DNA from: Chryseobacterium lacus
GTDB taxonomy: Bacteria; Bacteroidota; Bacteroidia; Flavobacteriales; Weeksellaceae
DNA: 64,000 nt
Direction: 5' to 3'
NCBI RefSeq assembly: GCF_003336205.1
Contig: NZ_QPIE01000003.1
Location: 1 to 64,000, forward strand
Of the stretch, positions 6,879-61,191 are shown piece by piece; the first letter of the stretch is position 1; the number at the start of each line of letters is the position of its first letter. The notes below the pieces were generated by a model. The model had not been told where the DNA came from and did not search any database. It was given only the letters and a program-made list of their open reading frames with translations. A program made the position numbers and the translations under genes.

Positions 6879-7769
6879 TTAATCACAATAACACGGCGGT
6901 CTTCCGAATGAGTAGGTTACTGCCAGAGTAACACTGTTGATCCAGTCTTTGGAATTAGGATCTCCCACCTTTCTTCTGTATAGAAAATCCCGTTCTCTTT
7001 CCTGAGCTACTGCATAATAGTAGCCAGTTTGCAAGAGTGAAGTATTGGTATTGGGAGAAAGAATATCTGCATTAAAAGTGGATTTAAGATCTTTTTCCTT
7101 CAGCATGCTGTAATCTAACTGTTCACTGATGGTAGGCCTGAACATTACTTCTGCCGATATAGCCCAGTTGTAGTTGAATTTATATTTCAAACCAACACCG
7201 AAAGGAACATATCCTGTTACTTTCTTCCCGGAATCGTATTCTATGGTCGAATTAAAATCCAGCTCGTTTACAGGAGCCTGAGCAACACCGTTCACATCTC
7301 GTCTGAAGTCATGAGACATCGTTGCCTGGGTAACATCATGCATCATCGCTCCTACACCGGCAAAGATATAAGGGCTGATCATTCCTCTCTGTTGTTCATT
7401 ATTCACAGGGAAGAAATTATATTCAAAAATGGCACTTGCTTCATAAAGATCATTGGTTCCCCACATTTTTCTGTTGTAACGATATTCTTCCTTGGCTGCT
7501 GCATCAGCAAACTGAACATGATTATAACCCAAATCAAAACGCAAAGTCTGATGCGGATTGAAATTCATTCTGTAAAGTAAACCTCCGTATACGGGCAAAC
7601 CAAACGTGGAAACATCTCTGAACGGCATTTGCAAAATATAATTGGTGCGGCCAATATCACCTACAAGGTTGCTGTGGCCTACTCGCACACCTAACTCATG
7701 CCTTTGTGCATCCATATCTGCAATTGTCAATACAAGAGCTAGTATGCTAAATAATAATTTTTTATTCAT
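6879..7769 (-). CDS. DUF6089-like outer-membrane beta-barrel protein
   Basis: The 296-residue protein begins with a signal peptide (about 1-21, ending DMDAQ) and continues with alternating amphipathic strands (GVRVGHSNLVGDIG, FRFDLGYNHVQF, VPFGVGLKYKFNYNWAISAEVMFRPT) ending in VTLAVTYSFGRPPCYCD. This matches the small barrel proteins that head the uppS-bamA operon in flavobacteria (annotated DUF6089). Function is not established; its position suggests a role in envelope biogenesis. It has a clear own promoter and is the first gene of the leftward operon down to 371. Confidence 0.75.
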   Translation of the reverse strand: MNKKLLFSILALVLTIADMDAQRHELGVRVGHSNLVGDIGRTNYILQMPFRDVSTFGLPVYGGLLYRMNFNPHQTLRFDLGYNHVQFADAAAKEEYRYNRKMWGTNDLYEASAIFEYNFFPVNNEQQRGMISPYIFAGVGAMMHDVTQATMSHDFRRDVNGVAQAPVNELDFNSTIEYDSGKKVTGYVPFGVGLKYKFNYNWAISAEVMFRPTISEQLDYSMLKEKDLKSTFNADILSPNTNTSLLQTGYYYAVAQERERDFLYRRKVGDPNSKDWINSVTLAVTYSFGRPPCYCD

Positions 7770-7812
7770 GGAAGAATACGGTTTATGGTTACTTTAAAAA
7801 ATTTTATTTGTG

Positions 7813-7841
7813 CAAATATAAAACATTTTTATATTTCCAAA
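7813..7841 (-). promoter_or_regulatory. promoter of the DUF6089-uppS-bamA-skp operon
   Basis: On the minus strand TTTG (7838-7841) is separated by 17 bases from TATATTTG (7813-7820), matching the Bacteroidota consensus. The start codon of the DUF6089 gene is 43 bases further on, leaving a leader of about 40 bases. The rest of 7770-7998 is AT-rich and without a recognisable gene. Confidence 0.7.
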
Positions 7842-7998
7842 ATTCTTAATGATAAGTTAAATATAGACAAAAAAAATATAATTTTTAAAAACTAAACGTC
7901 AAAATCTTTATTTTATTCTAAATTCTATAGAGCTACAAGGCTTTTAATCAGTAGCAACCTTTTCTAAATCAATCACGAAAAACGCATTCTGAGAAATA

Positions 7999-9081
7999 TT
8001 AATGATGTAAAAACTTCAACAACCGGGAACTTAAAATACCCCGTTTTGCGTTTTCGTAGTCATCTATTGTGCAAGGCAACCATTCCTCAATACTTTCACT
8101 ATTTCCGACATACCACAGATTGCTGAAAACATCTCGCCGAAAAGCGTATTGAGCATCATCAATTATTACCCAGAAAGTTTCAAATTCCCTTTCTTCAGGA
8201 TGGCTTTTCCGAATGTTGATGCCTTCTGTTAAATACCAGATCATCTGCGCCAGAAGCTGTTCATTCAATATATTTCCGGAATCAGCAACCACATTGAAAA
8301 TCCCAACAGATTTCAAATTTCTGCCCAGCCCGATTTCTTTCATAATGGCACATATTTCTCTTCGGTTCAGTCCGTTTACCTGCGGATGGATTGAAAAACA
8401 ATCGCTCATACTTTCCACAGCATCACAATTTACCGTCACCATATCGGTAGTCCGCAAAAAGGGTTCTGCTTTGTCCGACCGGTTCATCATTTCTGCCAGT
8501 CTCATTACATCAAAATCCACTTCATTCATCAATTTTATGGTCTCAACTTCATTCAGATGCTTCTGATAACCAAGGTGATGATATTTATTAATTGAAAAGT
8601 TCTTTGATGAAAATATTTTGCTTAGGAAGTTATTTTCCGTAACTTCCGTACCTTCCGTATCCAGTGAAATCCTATCTGAAATCTGAGTATAGCTGATGTT
8701 TTTATGATGAAAATTCAGCGCAGAATAAACAGAAAAAGAGAGATCATTGCTTCCACCGATCACAACAGGAATTGTCTTTTTATAATGACAGGAAGATAAT
8801 ATTTCCTGAAGAATATAGTGGGTATCCTCTCTCGTTTTCCCTGAAATCAAATCTCCGAAATCATGAACGGGCACTTCGAAATCCAACCCTGAAAGTTGAT
8901 AAAGCTGTCGCCTGACCGGAGTAAAATCCAGCATTTCTGCAGATTCGCCTGCTCCACGATAATCCGATACCCAAAGCAACGCAATTCCGGCTTCAGGCAA
9001 TTCGTCTTTCAACTGACTGCCGAACTGCCATTTTTCGGTCTTGATATATTTCGGGGGAATAATGAAATCTTCGTAGTTCAT
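7999..9081 (-). CDS. arginase/formimidoylglutamase-fold protein lacking metal ligands
   Basis: The 360-residue protein has the general layout of the ureohydrolase (arginase, agmatinase, formimidoylglutamase) family and lies next to topA, where flavobacteria often carry such a gene. The three metal-binding signatures are degenerate. The GGxH loop reads VVIGGSNDLSFS (His replaced by Asn), the DAHxD strand reads SYTQISDRISL, and the DxDxxD strand reads VTVNCDAVESMSD, keeping one Asp. A binuclear manganese centre is therefore unlikely, and hydrolase activity is doubtful. The start at 9081 (MNYEDFIIPPKY) is chosen over 9117. A non-catalytic or regulatory role is inference. Confidence 0.72.
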   Translation of the reverse strand: MNYEDFIIPPKYIKTEKWQFGSQLKDELPEAGIALLWVSDYRGAGESAEMLDFTPVRRQLYQLSGLDFEVPVHDFGDLISGKTREDTHYILQEILSSCHYKKTIPVVIGGSNDLSFSVYSALNFHHKNISYTQISDRISLDTEGTEVTENNFLSKIFSSKNFSINKYHHLGYQKHLNEVETIKLMNEVDFDVMRLAEMMNRSDKAEPFLRTTDMVTVNCDAVESMSDCFSIHPQVNGLNRREICAIMKEIGLGRNLKSVGIFNVVADSGNILNEQLLAQMIWYLTEGINIRKSHPEEREFETFWVIIDDAQYAFRRDVFSNLWYVGNSESIEEWLPCTIDDYENAKRGILSSRLLKFLHH

Positions 9082-9164: not shown

Positions 9165-11741
9165 TTATTTATCAGATTTTTTTGGAGCTTTTTTCGCAGC
9201 CACAGTTTTCTTTGGAGCTGCGGTTTTATTTGGAGTTGCTTTTTTGGCCGCAGTTTTTTTCTTTTCTGCAAAAGCAGTCTTATCCTGTGCTGTAATCCAT
9301 TTTTTCACTTCTTCCAGAGTCACTTCTGCTAAATCCTCAGCGGTATATTTCTCGTCGTCTTTGGTTTTTGGAATTTTAAAATTTGTTTTCCCAAATTTAA
9401 TAAAAGGGCCCCAACGTCCATTCTCAATAGAAATCTTCTCTTTTTCCCACTGTTGTATATAGCGGTTCGCTTCTTTTTCCAGTTTTGCTTCTATCAACTC
9501 CTGAATGTCATTTTGAGAAAGATTCTCGAAATCATATTTTTTAGGAACATTCACAAACATATCTTTGTATTTGATGAATGGCCCGAATCTTCCTTTTCCT
9601 TTGGTTACAGGTTCTCCTTTGTAATGAGCAACCGGAGCGTCGGCAAGTTGTTTTTCTTTTATAAGTTCTTCGGCACGTTCCTGATTTACAGACAAAGGAT
9701 CTTCTAATTTCGGAATACTAATGTACGTTTCGCCCCATTTTATATACGGGCCAAATCTTCCGACCGCAACAGAAACCGGTTTGCCTTCATAATCCTGAAG
9801 TTCAAAAGGCAGTTTGAACAGTTCCAGAGCTTCTTCCAAAGTAATGGTGGCAATATTTTGTGTTGCCATCAAGCTCGCAAAAGTTGGCTTCACCTCATCA
9901 TCACTTTCTCCAATTTGAATCATAGCACCATAGCGCCCCATTCTTGCATAAACATTTTTTCCTGATTTCGGATCTTTCCCCAGCAATCGTTCTCCTGTAG
10001 CGCGGTCTGCATTTTCCTCTACATCTTCTATTTTAGGATGAAAGTCTTTGTAAAATTCACCCAAAACTTCTTTCCATTTTTCGGCTCCATTGGCAATATC
10101 GTCGAAGTTCTGTTCTACTTTTGCTGTAAAACCATAATCCAGAATCTCGGCGAAATTATTCGTCAGAAATTCATTCACAACTTCACCAATGTCGGTAGGA
10201 ACAAATTTATTTTTATCGCCACCGAATTTCTCTGTAACAACTTGTTTTTTAAGCTCCTTCGTAAGGGTCATTTTTACGATTTCCCTTTCCTGTGGCAAAA
10301 TTTCCCGTTTATCTACATATTCTCTATTCTGAATGGTTTGAATCGTCGGCGCATAAGTTGAAGGCCTTCCGATACCGAGTTCTTCCAGTTTTTTTACCAG
10401 TCCGGCTTCCGTGTAACGTGCTGCAGGCCTTGTGAATTTCTCGGTAGCTTCAATTTTTTTATATTTTAATAGTTCACCAACTTTTACTTTCGGGAGGATC
10501 TTTTCGTTGTCTTCATCGTCTTCATCTTCGTTTTTAATAATTCCGTACGCTTTCAGGAAACCTTCAAAAATAATTACTTCTCCCTGAGCTTCAAACTGAT
10601 ACTGAAGTTTTGAATTTCCAATCTGAATTACGGTTCTTTCGATCTTGGCATTGCTCATCTGCGAAGCGAGCGTTCTTCTGTAAATGAGCTGATAGAGCTT
10701 ATTCAACTGAGCATCCCCAATAGATTTCACAGAGAAATCTGTCGGCCGTATCGCTTCGTGGGCTTCTTGTGCAGAAGCAGATTTTGTGGTATAATTTCTC
10801 GGATTAGAATACGCTTCCCCAAACTCTGAAATAATTTGAGACTTCGCTCCGTTGATCGCTTCCTGAGAGAGATTTACGGAATCTGTTCTCATATAAGTTA
10901 TGAATCCTTCTTCGTATAATCGTTGTGCCAAACGCATTGTTGTGGTGACATTATAACCTAATCTGGACGATGCTTCCTGCTGAAGCGTAGATGTTGTAAA
11001 TGGTGCTGATGCAGAACGGGTTCCGGGCTTTGTTTCAACGTTCTGAACTTTGAATTCGGTGTCTTTTGCCTGAGTTAAAAAATTCTCGGCTTCTTCTTCT
11101 TTTTTAAAATCACCTTTCAGTTTGGCAGCAATTTCCTGTTGTTCTTCATTCAGGAAAGTCCCTTCAATCTTGAATGCAGAAACCGGCTTGAAATTTCTGA
11201 TTTCTAATTCTCTTTCTACTACAAGGCGTACTGCAACAGACTGCACTCTTCCTGCCGAAAGTCCGGTTTTTACTTTTTTCCAAAGCACCGGCGACATTTC
11301 AAAACCCACAATCCGGTCCAGAACTCTTCTGGCTTGCTGGGCATTCACCAAATTCTGGTCAATTTTTCTCGGATTCTCTATCGCTTTCTGGATGGCATTT
11401 TTGGTAATTTCATGAAAAACGATTCTCTTCGCATTGTTTTCATCCAATTTCAATTCCTGCGCCAGATGCCACGCAATAGCTTCTCCTTCACGGTCTTCAT
11501 CGGAAGCCAACCAAACGGTTTCCGCTTTTTTCACGGCTTCTTTCAGCTCGGAAACAATTTTCTTTTTATCGGGAGATACTTCATAATCGGGCGTAAAAGT
11601 GGTGAGATCTATTCCCATTCCTTTCTTAGGCAGATCCCGAATATGGCCGAAGCTGGATTTCACTTCAAAATCCTTTCCGAGATATTTCTGTATGGTTTTG
11701 GCTTTTGCCGGCGATTCGACAATAACGAGATTTTTGGACAT
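9165..11741 (-). CDS. topA: DNA topoisomerase I (type IA)
   Basis: TopA relaxes negative supercoils by single-strand passage. The 858-residue protein has the N-terminal Toprim domain (VIVESPAKAKTI at 6-17; acidic DEDREGE at 81-87), and the catalytic tyrosine Y283 in EEGFITYMRTDS. The GRPSTYAPTIQTI segment of domain IV follows. Instead of C4 zinc ribbons the C-terminus has four repeats of the form GR-x-G-(A/P)-x-IK (RYGAMIQ, RFGPYIKW, RFGPFIKY, RWGPFIKF). It ends in a Lys/Ala-rich tail of about 35 residues that probably binds DNA non-specifically. Length is typical for Bacteroidota. It is transcribed divergently from ileS. Confidence 0.97.
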   Translation of the reverse strand: MSKNLVIVESPAKAKTIQKYLGKDFEVKSSFGHIRDLPKKGMGIDLTTFTPDYEVSPDKKKIVSELKEAVKKAETVWLASDEDREGEAIAWHLAQELKLDENNAKRIVFHEITKNAIQKAIENPRKIDQNLVNAQQARRVLDRIVGFEMSPVLWKKVKTGLSAGRVQSVAVRLVVERELEIRNFKPVSAFKIEGTFLNEEQQEIAAKLKGDFKKEEEAENFLTQAKDTEFKVQNVETKPGTRSASAPFTTSTLQQEASSRLGYNVTTTMRLAQRLYEEGFITYMRTDSVNLSQEAINGAKSQIISEFGEAYSNPRNYTTKSASAQEAHEAIRPTDFSVKSIGDAQLNKLYQLIYRRTLASQMSNAKIERTVIQIGNSKLQYQFEAQGEVIIFEGFLKAYGIIKNEDEDDEDNEKILPKVKVGELLKYKKIEATEKFTRPAARYTEAGLVKKLEELGIGRPSTYAPTIQTIQNREYVDKREILPQEREIVKMTLTKELKKQVVTEKFGGDKNKFVPTDIGEVVNEFLTNNFAEILDYGFTAKVEQNFDDIANGAEKWKEVLGEFYKDFHPKIEDVEENADRATGERLLGKDPKSGKNVYARMGRYGAMIQIGESDDEVKPTFASLMATQNIATITLEEALELFKLPFELQDYEGKPVSVAVGRFGPYIKWGETYISIPKLEDPLSVNQERAEELIKEKQLADAPVAHYKGEPVTKGKGRFGPFIKYKDMFVNVPKKYDFENLSQNDIQELIEAKLEKEANRYIQQWEKEKISIENGRWGPFIKFGKTNFKIPKTKDDEKYTAEDLAEVTLEEVKKWITAQDKTAFAEKKKTAAKKATPNKTAAPKKTVAAKKAPKKSDK

Positions 11742-56725: not shown

Positions 56726-58909
56726 TTATCTCTTCTTTTTTGCTTTCAGAACGCTGCCTTTCACAGGTGTTGGATGCTCGTTGGTCACGAAGGTCATTTC
56801 GTCCACAATTCTCTTTGCACCGGCATATTGGTCTATAGTCCACATTACAAAACGGATATCCACATTGATGGTTTTCTGCCATTTCGGTTCGAAAACGATG
56901 TCTCCTGAAAGCGCTTCCGAATTTCCGTCAAAAGCGATTCCGATCAGGTTTCCTTCTGCATCAATCACCGGTGATCCGGAATTTCCTCCAGTGATATCGT
57001 GATCTGTAAGGAAGTTGACGGGAAGATACCCGGCTGCATCGGCGTAAATTCCATAATCTCTGGTAGCGTGCATATCTAGAACCTTTTTAGGAAGGTCAAA
57101 CTCTTCGTCTCCTTCTTTGTATTTATCTACCAGCCCCTGCATATCTGTATAGAAATTCTCGGTAATTCCTTTGTAACTTCTGTCAGCTCTTTGAGGAAGC
57201 GTGGCTACTTTTCCGTAAGTCAATCTCATGGTTCCGTTCGCATCCGGATAGAAAGTTCTCTCAGGGAACGCTTTTCTGTAACCTTCCATGAGCATTCTGC
57301 TGTTTCTGGCAAAATTACTTTCTACCAAAGAGAATTTCTTAGCCAAAGCTCTTTGATCAGCAACATAAGCGTTGGAAAGTCGGTACAGCGGATCGGCATC
57401 CAATTTTACTTTATCAGGATTCAGCATGAAATTGAGGGCTGAAGCTTTATTGGCGAATATGGAAGAATGCGCCTGCAAAGAAAGGTTGGAGGCATCCTGA
57501 GCCATCAATGTTGGCGAAGCCACGTCACGGTTTACTTTGGTTTGATAAAGCTTCACCAGTGAATTCAGCATTTCGCCTTCCAGTTCTGCATCGAAATCAT
57601 TGTAGAAATCATTGATCGCTTCCTCCAGTTGAGGCCTCATTTTGATTCTGTTCTGCATATCCTGATCTGCATAGGTTTTAAATAAATTCCCCAGCTGAAA
57701 AGGTGTTGTAATATACTTGGAATTGATTTGAATCTGAATATTATAGCTTCTTTCCATATTCCGTTGGGAAACCTGCTGATAATAGGTTTTTATTTCTTCC
57801 AAGATCCCGACGTAATCCTGATTTCCGGGAAGCAGTGTCCAGTTGGCAAAGGCATTCTCCTCTCTCTCTTTCTCAGAAATGGTAGAATTTTGAATAACTG
57901 CATCAATGGTTCCTTGTCTGTTTTTCCAGTAATTGGCAACATTGGCGTATTGTGAAGCGTAATTCAATTGTGTCGCTTTATTCCTGTCCATGTATTTTTT
58001 CATTACCTGCATCGCGAGATTGGAGGCTTCTACCCAAGCCGGATAATCTTTGGTCACGAGCTGATTGATTCCATAAGACGTCATATAACGGTTGGTTCTT
58101 CCGGGATATCCGATGATCATGGAGAAATCTCCGGGCTGAATGCCCTTGAGTGAAACAGGAAGATGGTGTTTCGGTTTCAAAGGAACATTTTTCGGGTCGT
58201 ATTCTGCAGGATTTCCTTTGGCATCAGCATACACTCTGAAAACAGCAAAATCTCCGGTATGTCTTGGCCATTCCCAGTTATCGGTATCGCCCCCGAATTT
58301 TCCTATGGCAGAGGGAGGTGCGCCTACGAGTCTTACATCTTTATAATCCTGATAAACGAAATAATAAAATTCATTCCCGTTAAAGAAATCCCGAACAACT
58401 ACGGTATATTTTCCGTTCTCGGAATTTTCAGTTTGAATGGCTTTATATTCTCTGTCGATGACGGCTTTGCGCTGTTCTTCCGTCATAGTATCGTTCAGTT
58501 TTGAGTTGATTCTTTGGGTTGCATCATCCATTCTGATAAGGAAACGGACATACAGATCCTTCGCATTAAATTCATCTTTCTGCTTCATGGCCCAGAATCC
58601 GTTTTTCAGATAATCCTGTTCCGGAGTGGAAGCAGCCGCAATGTTGTCATATCCACAGTGATGATTGGTAAAGATTAATCCCTGATCAGAAACAATTTCA
58701 CCCGTGCAATATCCTCCGAAGCTTACAATAGCATCTTTCAGGGAAGAATTATTAACGGAATAAATTTCTTCAGGAGTCAGTTTCAGGCCCTGGCGCTGCA
58801 TATCCACTCCATTCAGTCTTTTGATCAGCATCATGAGCCACATTCCCTCATCAGCCTTCATTTGTACAAAACTCAGAAGGAATGTAAGCAGTAAAAATAT
58901 TCTTTTCAT
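56726..58909 (-). CDS. S46 family dipeptidyl peptidase, DPP7-type (downstream copy)
   Basis: S46 enzymes remove dipeptides from the N-terminus of peptides in the periplasm, supporting growth on peptides. The 727-residue protein has a signal peptide (1-19, ending QMKAD), the catalytic His region TNHHCGY (H83/H84), and the catalytic Ser644 in TGGNSGSPV. The S1 position has Gly (about 662 in IAFDGNSEALSGDI) rather than the Arg of acidic-specific DPP11, so a preference for hydrophobic P1 residues is expected. It is very similar to the next gene, with which it forms a tandem. It ends in a basic tail KAKKKR, absent from its paralogue. Confidence 0.93.
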   Translation of the reverse strand: MKRIFLLLTFLLSFVQMKADEGMWLMMLIKRLNGVDMQRQGLKLTPEEIYSVNNSSLKDAIVSFGGYCTGEIVSDQGLIFTNHHCGYDNIAAASTPEQDYLKNGFWAMKQKDEFNAKDLYVRFLIRMDDATQRINSKLNDTMTEEQRKAVIDREYKAIQTENSENGKYTVVVRDFFNGNEFYYFVYQDYKDVRLVGAPPSAIGKFGGDTDNWEWPRHTGDFAVFRVYADAKGNPAEYDPKNVPLKPKHHLPVSLKGIQPGDFSMIIGYPGRTNRYMTSYGINQLVTKDYPAWVEASNLAMQVMKKYMDRNKATQLNYASQYANVANYWKNRQGTIDAVIQNSTISEKEREENAFANWTLLPGNQDYVGILEEIKTYYQQVSQRNMERSYNIQIQINSKYITTPFQLGNLFKTYADQDMQNRIKMRPQLEEAINDFYNDFDAELEGEMLNSLVKLYQTKVNRDVASPTLMAQDASNLSLQAHSSIFANKASALNFMLNPDKVKLDADPLYRLSNAYVADQRALAKKFSLVESNFARNSRMLMEGYRKAFPERTFYPDANGTMRLTYGKVATLPQRADRSYKGITENFYTDMQGLVDKYKEGDEEFDLPKKVLDMHATRDYGIYADAAGYLPVNFLTDHDITGGNSGSPVIDAEGNLIGIAFDGNSEALSGDIVFEPKWQKTINVDIRFVMWTIDQYAGAKRIVDEMTFVTNEHPTPVKGSVLKAKKKR

Positions 58910-59002
58910 TGTTCTAAAATTATTAATGGTGGCTAATTTAGTAATTTCTTTCAAGAATCATTTTAAGATTTTGGATATTTTAAGAGAATTTGTATAAAAA
59001 TA

Positions 59003-59055: not shown

Positions 59056-61191
59056 TTATTTTACAATGGTCATTTCATTGATCAAATGGCCTGCTCCGGC
59101 GAATTTGTCAATAACCCAAAGTACATATCTGGAATCTACGGCAATGGTTTTCTGCCATTCTTCCTCGAAAACGATGTCTCCGGAAAGGGCTTCAGAATTT
59201 CCGTCGAAAGCTAAACCAATCAGTTCTCCGTTACCGTTCAAAACCGGCGATCCGGAATTTCCGCCTGTGATATCATTATCGGTAAGGAAATTAACCGGAA
59301 GGTATCCTGCAGGATCAGCGTATTGTCCATAATCTCTTTTCGCATTCAGGTCGATAAGCTTTTGTGGCATATCGAATTCTTCGTCTCCTTTTTTGTATTT
59401 TGCTACAGTTCCGTCTAGATCTGTGTAGAAATTATTGGTAACACCATGGTAATTTCTGTCATCTCTGAAAGGAAGTGTCGAGATTTTCCCGAAAGTAATT
59501 CTCATGGTAGAGTTGGCATCCGGATAAAATTCAACTTTGGGATGTGATTTTCTTAAACCGTCGAAATAAAGTCTGTTGATGTTGCTGAATTTATCATCTT
59601 CCGCTGAAAATTTATCGTTCAGTTTTCTTTGATCTTCCACATATCCGGTACCCAGTTTATAAAGCGCATCTCTTTCCAGCGTTTGCATATCTGGATTGTT
59701 AAGGAAATTCATGGCTGAGTTTCTGTTTGCAAAAATGGAATGTTTCGCAACATCGTCCAGAAGATCAGCATTGATATGCTGGAAATAAGGCGAAGCCACA
59801 AAGCCATCCACTTTGGATTTATACAGGCCCACCATGGTTTTCAGCATTTCCTGCTCCATTGCCGGATTGAATTTCTCATACATCGTATTGATTCTTTCCG
59901 ATAAAGTTTTCTTCAGTTCCGCTTTTTTGGCAGCATCGGTTTCGTTCATCATCGTTTTGAAAGCACTTCCCAAAGAAACGGCGTAAGAAATATACTTTGC
60001 ATTTCTGGTCATTTGTGAAGCATAATTTCTTTCTACACCTCTGGCAGAGGTTGTTTTGTAATAAGACTCCATATCAGCAAGTACATTTCCGTACAGGTCT
60101 TTATTTTCAGGTTTTTGTGCCCATTTTTGGAATACCTCTTCTACCTTTTGTTTATCCTGAATCGTTCCGTTTTTATTGACGGATTCAATGGTTCCTTGTC
60201 TGTTTTTCCAGTAATTGGCTACGGAAGCGTACTGAGAAGCGTAATTTAATTTCGTAGCCTGATCGCGATCCATATACTTTTTCATCACATCCATCGCATT
60301 TCTGGACGCGTCTACCCAACCCGGGTAATCTTTATTTACCAGTTGATCAATTCCGTACGATGTCATATAACGGTTTGTTCGTCCCGGATATCCTACAATC
60401 ATTGCAAAATCTCCTGCTGTAAAAGGTTTTATAGAAACGGGAAGGTGATGTTTAGGCTTCATCGGAACATTGTTCGGGGAATATTCTGCCGGATTTCCAT
60501 TGACGTCCGAATAAACTCTGAAAACCGCAAAATCTCCGGTGTGTCTTGGCCATTCCCAGTTATCGGTATCACCACCAAATTTTCCGATGGAATTAGGCGG
60601 AGTTCCTACCAATCTCACATCTTTAAAATCCTGATAAACAAAATAATAAAATTCGTTTCCATTGTAAAAATCGCGAACTACTACGGTATATTTTCCGTTC
60701 TCAGAATTTTCATTCTGAATCTTTTTATACTCAGCGTCGATGATGTCTCTTCTTTCTTTGGTGGACATTTGGTTATTCAGCAACGCATTGATTCTGTTGG
60801 AAACATCATCCATTCTAACCAGAAATCTCACTGAAAGACCTTTTGCCGGAAGTTCCTGGCTTTTGTTCATCGCCCAGAATCCATTCGTGAGATGGTCTTT
60901 TTCAGGGGTAGAAAGCGCTGCAATCTGTCCGTAACCACAATGGTGATTCGTGAACAGCAACCCTTCTTTAGACACCATTTCCGCAGTACATCCGCCACCA
61001 AACTGCACGATGGCATCTTTCAGGCTAGAGCCATTCACCGAATAAATTTCTTCTGCAGTTAATTTTAGTCCTTTTTTCTGTAAATCCTGTCCTTTCAGTC
61101 TGTTTACCAGCATCATCAGCCACATTCCTTCATCGGCTCTCATTTGAACAAAACTCAACATGAATGTTAAGAGTAAAAATATCTTTTTCAT
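59056..61191 (-). CDS. S46 family dipeptidyl peptidase, DPP7-type (upstream copy)
   Basis: The 711-residue protein has a signal peptide (1-19, ending QMRAD), TNHHCGY with catalytic His (83/84), Ser646 in TGGNSGSPV and Gly (about 664) in LAFDGNSEALSGDI, again the DPP7 pattern. The pair are products of a recent tandem duplication: signal peptide, catalytic loops and most of the chain correspond closely, and the length differs mainly at the C-terminus. They may differ in substrate preference through the helical lid domain (about 280-560), which is their most divergent part. Confidence 0.93.
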   Translation of the reverse strand: MKKIFLLLTFMLSFVQMRADEGMWLMMLVNRLKGQDLQKKGLKLTAEEIYSVNGSSLKDAIVQFGGGCTAEMVSKEGLLFTNHHCGYGQIAALSTPEKDHLTNGFWAMNKSQELPAKGLSVRFLVRMDDVSNRINALLNNQMSTKERRDIIDAEYKKIQNENSENGKYTVVVRDFYNGNEFYYFVYQDFKDVRLVGTPPNSIGKFGGDTDNWEWPRHTGDFAVFRVYSDVNGNPAEYSPNNVPMKPKHHLPVSIKPFTAGDFAMIVGYPGRTNRYMTSYGIDQLVNKDYPGWVDASRNAMDVMKKYMDRDQATKLNYASQYASVANYWKNRQGTIESVNKNGTIQDKQKVEEVFQKWAQKPENKDLYGNVLADMESYYKTTSARGVERNYASQMTRNAKYISYAVSLGSAFKTMMNETDAAKKAELKKTLSERINTMYEKFNPAMEQEMLKTMVGLYKSKVDGFVASPYFQHINADLLDDVAKHSIFANRNSAMNFLNNPDMQTLERDALYKLGTGYVEDQRKLNDKFSAEDDKFSNINRLYFDGLRKSHPKVEFYPDANSTMRITFGKISTLPFRDDRNYHGVTNNFYTDLDGTVAKYKKGDEEFDMPQKLIDLNAKRDYGQYADPAGYLPVNFLTDNDITGGNSGSPVLNGNGELIGLAFDGNSEALSGDIVFEEEWQKTIAVDSRYVLWVIDKFAGAGHLINEMTIVK

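Follow-up and report, generated by a model that had tools for sequence, protein, structure and literature searches.

A class-wide family of ureohydrolase-fold proteins in Bacteroidota that appears to have lost its metal site and is often encoded beside topA

Several described proteins share features with the protein studied here, P0001. The formiminoglutamase of Trypanosoma cruzi (PDB 4mxr, 2a0m) and HutG (TIGR01227; PDB 3m1r) have a fold in common with residues ~26 to 292 of P0001. Like P0001, the T. cruzi enzyme has GG-x-N-D as its first motif; its DSHLD and DxD motifs are intact, and its PDB titles name Mn2+ and an N114H variant, whereas P0001 has lost DAHxD and the first Asp of DxD and carries an extra C-terminal domain. 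The arginase-like protein of T. brucei (PDB 4rhi-4rhq) also combines the ureohydrolase fold with altered ligands. Titles of its mutant structures (S149D/R151H/S226D and S149D/R151H/S153D/S226D) imply the replacements D to S, H to R and D to S, as in P0001, but the protein is eukaryotic and has no gene context in common with P0001; the two ligand losses presumably occurred independently.

A bacterial counterpart is MetCb/MfmB (PDB 8x3g, 8snf, 8ryi), a pseudo-ureohydrolase subunit of metformin hydrolase in which, according to PMC11271267, five of the six ligands are changed, as in P0001, and which binds an active paralogue encoded alongside. No such paralogue is adjacent to P0001, and some genomes show none at all. 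In the same source the functions of pseudo-ureohydrolases are reported to be elusive. The family described below offers one putative pseudo-ureohydrolase that selection has maintained throughout a class; its conserved residues are defined, it has gained a domain, and its genomic address is a common one.

The P0001 gene lies in a 64,000-bp stretch of Chryseobacterium lacus DNA (contig NZ_QPIE01000003.1, positions 1 to 64,000), hereafter the window, and the features of the locus are collected in Table 1. Its open reading frame begins with the ATG at 9081, its span includes the stop codon, and it contains no lesion, as had been proposed from the sequence. We take the next gene downstream to be of the DUF6089 type, with uppS and then bamA presumably beyond it.

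Table 1. Features of the P0001 locus in the window.
Feature	Position	Strand	Basis
Putative pseudo-ureohydrolase CDS, 360 aa, P0001	7999..9081	-	ORF list, Pfam, hhalign, VIA-align
N112 (GGSND), position of the first ligand His	8746..8748	-	alignment
S135-D-R137-I-S139, position of D-A-H-x-D	8665..8679	-	alignment
N218-C-D220, position of D-x-D; D220 the sole ligand kept	8422..8430	-	alignment
E206-P-x-x-R210, family-specific motif	8452..8466	-	alignment of 163 members
C244, near-invariant	8350..8352	-	alignment of 163 members
W282, invariant	8236..8238	-	alignment of 163 members
C-terminal segment, residues 286-360, folded alone	8002..8226	-	predicted model, pLDDT 85.4
topA, directly upstream, 83 bp between	9165..11741	-	named from its sequence
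Next gene downstream of P0001	6879..7769	-	ORF list

As a single sequence, P0001 had no phmmer match in the PDB, and it scored 25.6 bits against the Pfam Arginase model (PF00491, cut-off 22). A profile built from 28 members matched formimidoylglutamases and metformin hydrolase subunits in the PDB (best 1.7e-10), and hhalign aligned the family with 15 canonical-type homologues over 293 columns (probability 99.96, E 4.7e-39). The full-length model, made from seven sequences, reached a pLDDT of 58.7 and a pTM of 0.56, and residues 123-212 and 220-238 fell below 50, where detail is not well supported. Its top VIA-align match was T. cruzi formiminoglutamase (Z 16.4, rmsd 4.0, 221 residues). A ureohydrolase (arginase) fold is therefore well supported as a prediction, from the profile-profile comparison and the overlay of a modest model, and the earlier proposal that the fold is retained agrees with it. 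A FastTree phylogeny placed all 163 aligned members in one group (support 0.80). A Crl-like C-terminus, a weak hit at 0.088 (Pfam) and 0.035 (NCBIfam) that recurred in only one of 28 members examined, was taken as chance.

The sequence-only reading doubted that P0001 is a formimidoylglutamase, and rightly so. Against NCBIfam hutG (TIGR01227) P0001 scores 25.3 bits where the cut-off is 229.15, and the genome carries a true HutG (267 bits) that adjoins hutI. This HutG and an agmatinase (200 bits) both lie away from P0001, whose gene has topA and no hut gene as its neighbour. Should an annotation pipeline label the family formimidoylglutamase, the label would be a false sign of histidine breakdown.

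The metal site was compared in an alignment of 163 non-redundant members and the 15 canonical-type homologues, which are weak profile matches from outside the class together with one second copy (L096-L107, L112-L114). Near-duplicates of more than 90% identity, members below 100 bits (including L092), 18 of the 24 short loci L046-L069 and the duplicates L001, L004 and L011 were left out of the 163. When P0001 was aligned with the canonical-type homologues, five of its six ligands proved to be replaced: N112 and R137 stand at the two His columns, S135, S139 and N218 at three of the Asp columns, and D220 is kept. P0001 thus lacks the complete set of six ligands of GGxH, DAHxD and DxD by which we recognised a catalytic ureohydrolase. 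No member of the family keeps both ligand His, and none keeps more than four ligands (none in 2 members, one in 31, two in 16, three in 100 and four in 14); all six are kept in 10 of the 15 canonical-type homologues and five in the other 5. As judged from these sequences, the loss is beyond chance. No alternative alignment that would fill the metal site of P0001 with His or Asp was found.

Individual ligand columns differ in how far they have changed. Asp is kept at position 135 in 133 of the 163 members, at 139 in 118 and at 218 in 128, and the middle His is replaced by Arg in 36 members and by Lys in 34. In the 22-member clade of the window these Asp are nearly gone (1, 3 and 1 of 22, respectively), and D220 is present in 20. 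The first motif is less telling. Four of the 15 canonical-type homologues, otherwise complete in their ligands, and also T. cruzi formiminoglutamase have Asn in place of the first ligand His, so GGSND alone is not diagnostic of inactivity; the decisive ligand losses, as read from the alignment, are those of DAHxD and of the first Asp of DxD. Of the three signatures that had been described as replaced, then, the second and the first Asp of the third hold as signs of a lost metal site, and the first is shared with metal-binding relatives. Likewise, the statement that nearly all ligands were lost fits the window's own clade but not the wider family, which mostly keeps three. The loss itself is fixed among the homologues, in that no member has both His.

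The four canonical-type homologues with Asn (L097, L098, L100, L101) come from the wider phylum and, like the T. cruzi enzyme, combine GGxND with intact DAH and DxD. They are possibly a bacterial sister group of T. cruzi formiminoglutamase, near the source of the P0001 family.

In place of the ligands, the family has acquired other near-invariant residues, which are missing in the canonical-type homologues. These are E206 (163 of 163 members), R210 (162), W282 (163) and C244 (156), followed in the C-terminal extension by F314 (162), W323 (157), C337 (162) and Y342 (156). C244 and C337 occur together in 155 of 163 members, and no other Cys or His column is near-invariant. After column 292 the family has a median of 82 residues, compared with 0 (maximum 4) in the canonical-type homologues. 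When residues 286-360 (75 aa) were modelled alone, four strands and two helices were predicted. Searches of the PDB with this segment gave no clear match (Foldseek best E 1.3; VIA-align best Z 2.9 over 59 residues), results that do not prove a new fold.

A few members have diverged in the N-terminal half. In L084, L091 and L154 the main profile match begins only at profile position 134-183, and the half with the GG and DAH motifs is unrecognisable; most C-terminal motifs remain, although C244 is Thr or Ser in L084 and L091. L092 behaves likewise, matching more weakly (60.9 bits), and keeps the C-terminal motifs in part. The shortened or diverged copies L084, L091 and L092 adjoin murF and gldJ-like genes, not topA, in convergent orientation; these neighbours were confirmed by NCBIfam in L091 only. 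L154 (genome G769) has neither GldK nor SprA, and there topA adjoins the copy with the diverged N-terminal half and intact C-terminal motifs.

Like topA, the P0001 gene evolves under constraint. Omega was 0.105 between the window and L005 and 0.044 between L008 and L015; among five genomes of genus g24 that lack type IX secretion, five pairs gave 0.033-0.049. TopA gave 0.059, 0.022 and 0.019-0.039 for the same pairs. These seven pairs (one further pair was saturated and gave no value), with omega between 0.03 and 0.11, show strong purifying selection on the P0001 gene, which is not decaying.

P0001 belongs to a family that, by profile and alignment evidence, is spread over a whole class of Bacteroidota. 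The gene is present in 117 of 120 genomes of the GTDB family, and in 111 of the 112 near-complete ones. Profile matches were found in 224 of 236 genomes of the class, a few of them weak or partial, and in 159 of 218 genomes of the order around G530, where several are weak and some perhaps canonical enzymes. At the level of the phylum 136 of 296 genomes matched; the matches outside the class were weak, and those examined were of the canonical type. Exact peptide patterns compared with named GTDB genomes picked out six relatives, and searches of PHROGs and plasmids with the family gave no match.

The most persistent neighbour of the P0001 gene is topA, but the linkage is not universal. Among 162 non-redundant loci, which were chosen by hand and are not a random sample, topA lies on the same strand within 500 bp upstream in 123, 68 of these within 25 bp; tblastn within 900 bp returned the same 123. 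Within the GTDB family tblastn placed topA on the same strand within 900 bp upstream in 29 of 40 loci, and in the other 11 topA is 1.5-6.1 kb upstream with one to several genes, often one of ~1035 aa, between, so tight coupling to topA is not required. The order loci L046-L069 have topA directly upstream without exception (24/24). Among gldK-adjacent loci it is upstream in 17 of 17 from the order of G530 and in 19 of 20 from the class. In 58 genomes of the order of G530 gldK is not adjacent, and 45 of these still have topA directly upstream; two of the remaining 13 had less than 1 kb of sequence. Loci L076-L095 come mostly from other families of the class, and 18 of these 20 do not have topA directly upstream. 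Several of these copies are also away from gldK and stand beside different genes, for example RmuC, a D-Ala-D-Ala carboxypeptidase or an NAD/FAD oxidoreductase, and no common partner was found among the neighbours of copies away from topA. topA itself occurs with or without a P0001 gene. The conserved position beside topA that had been noted for flavobacteria is therefore real and reaches beyond them, but it does not hold everywhere.

In eight loci (L231, L232, L233, L235, L236, L237, L238 and L040) from related genomes a gene of ~1020-1035 aa stands between topA and the P0001 gene, in L040 along with other inserted genes. On the downstream side, genes in Chryseobacterium-type genera look like glycosyltransferase and polysaccharide-export genes. 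Such polysaccharide-type genes (glycosyltransferase, export-like, Wzc-like) follow the P0001 gene in L006, L010, L022, L024, L025, L039, L040 and L041, and are missing downstream in the window (7769-8002), L005 and L008.

A frequent gene order that runs across the order and extends far into the class is topA, the P0001 gene, in some cases porP, then gldK, gldL, gldM and gldN. It gives P0001 the look of a secretion component, for instance one that partners the GldLM motor in the cytosol and would serve the type IX secretion and gliding machine as an accessory part. Among genomes with both genes in the matches listed, 84 of 112 from the class and 74 of 132 from the order of G530 have the P0001 gene just upstream of gldK on the same strand. 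The gap to gldK is 600-1800 bp, the size of porP, in 148 of 158 cases, and PorP/SprF was confirmed there in L081 and L082. A divergent form also sits beside murF-gldJ-porP in L091, and GldK is found in most genomes that carry the P0001 gene. Comparison of genomes argues against a general role of this kind. Seven of the 120 family genomes, from genera g23 and g24 (five in g24), have a full-length P0001 gene without SprA; G022, G023 and G045 had no GldK match, and those of G046, G061, G073 and G083 were weak and under the cut-off. In g24 the purifying selection on the gene is strong. Conversely, topA abuts porP-gldK in G646 without a P0001 gene between them or a match elsewhere in that genome, and among the 59 genomes of the order of G530 that have no P0001 gene, GldK exceeds the cut-off in at least 45, by subtraction. 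This dissociation in both directions means that the P0001 gene is in general neither needed by type IX secretion nor dependent on it, and rules out an obligatory component. An accessory part in this machine thus seems improbable to us, although a lineage-specific role may exist, co-occurrence being high otherwise. In the genome of the window the linkage is absent, its own gldKLMN being on another contig. GldK is present and the P0001 gene absent in G005 and G033, which are 79% and 93% complete. Type IX secretion seems to have been lost in the seven genomes, and the rest of the family otherwise has it; G092, also of g24, has both GldK and SprA.

Three further explanations start from the fold itself. 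If P0001 kept a metal-free pocket for a small ligand, it could act as a sensor or a metabolite-responsive regulator. The pocket-forming fold is retained, and the Asp at 135, 139 and 218 that most members keep, often with Arg or Lys at the middle His, could provide charge in place of the metal; the window's clade has lost nearly all of these Asp, however, and the half that would bear the pocket is unrecognisable in L084, L091, L092 and L154, which together make a sensor an unlikely reading. P0001 might instead serve as the inactive subunit in a hetero-oligomeric ureohydrolase. A dead ureohydrolase acting as the subunit of a live one has a precedent in MetCb, as PMC11271267 describes, and chains of metformin hydrolase rank among the top PDB matches. 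Neither canonical enzyme of the window's genome is near P0001, however, and 15 of the 120 family genomes have the gene without any PF00491 match better than 1e-20, which rules out an obligate canonical partner as the rule and leaves an arrangement like that of MetCb very improbable. An active enzyme whose metal site has changed, or whose active site has gone unrecognised, has little more in its favour. A new site could be built from C244, C337, W282, E206 and R210, but no metal-binding set is conserved family-wide, C244 and C337 being the sole near-invariant Cys or His columns; of the readings weighed here we hold this one to be the least probable.

We consider it probable, leaving its partner aside, that P0001 is a neofunctionalised, non-catalytic, cytosolic binding protein that acts through its C-terminal half. 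The non-catalytic reading follows from the loss of the ligands, the retention of the fold, the class-wide occurrence, purifying selection and the shift of conservation towards the C-terminus. The protein would be cytosolic, as no signal peptide is evident at its N-terminus. The metal ligands have been lost and the ureohydrolase fold retained, and conservation has shifted towards the C-terminal half (EPxxR, C244, W282) and a newly gained domain (F314, W323, C337, Y342). A few divergent members have dropped the recognisable N-terminal half and kept most C-terminal motifs. P0001 may work as an adaptor or regulatory subunit through this C-terminal half.

From gene order DNA topoisomerase I (TopA) is the leading candidate partner, if a doubtful one. 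Gene order is no proof of an interaction between the two proteins, and we rate TopA a little lower than we otherwise would because it is not encoded directly upstream in 11 of the 40 GTDB-family loci. More speculative still is a class-wide, hitherto undescribed accessory of TopA, in which a dead ureohydrolase with a new C-terminal domain, made together with TopA, would tune its activity or tie DNA supercoiling to the secretion and envelope genes downstream.

The family thus probably has a non-enzymatic role, one not yet described in the papers searched. A literature search that left most subscription papers and all preprints outside its reach found no paper on the family, and the parts of PMC8986121 and PMC7323717 consulted hold nothing on the P0001 protein.

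Two other features of the window may be mentioned. The C-terminal tail of its TopA (9165-9300) is rich in Lys and Ala, and we take it to resemble histone H1-like tails. The two mutually adjacent ORFs at 56726-58954 and 59056-61191 (742 and 711 aa) are clearly paralogous, and presumably encode S46 dipeptidyl-peptidases.
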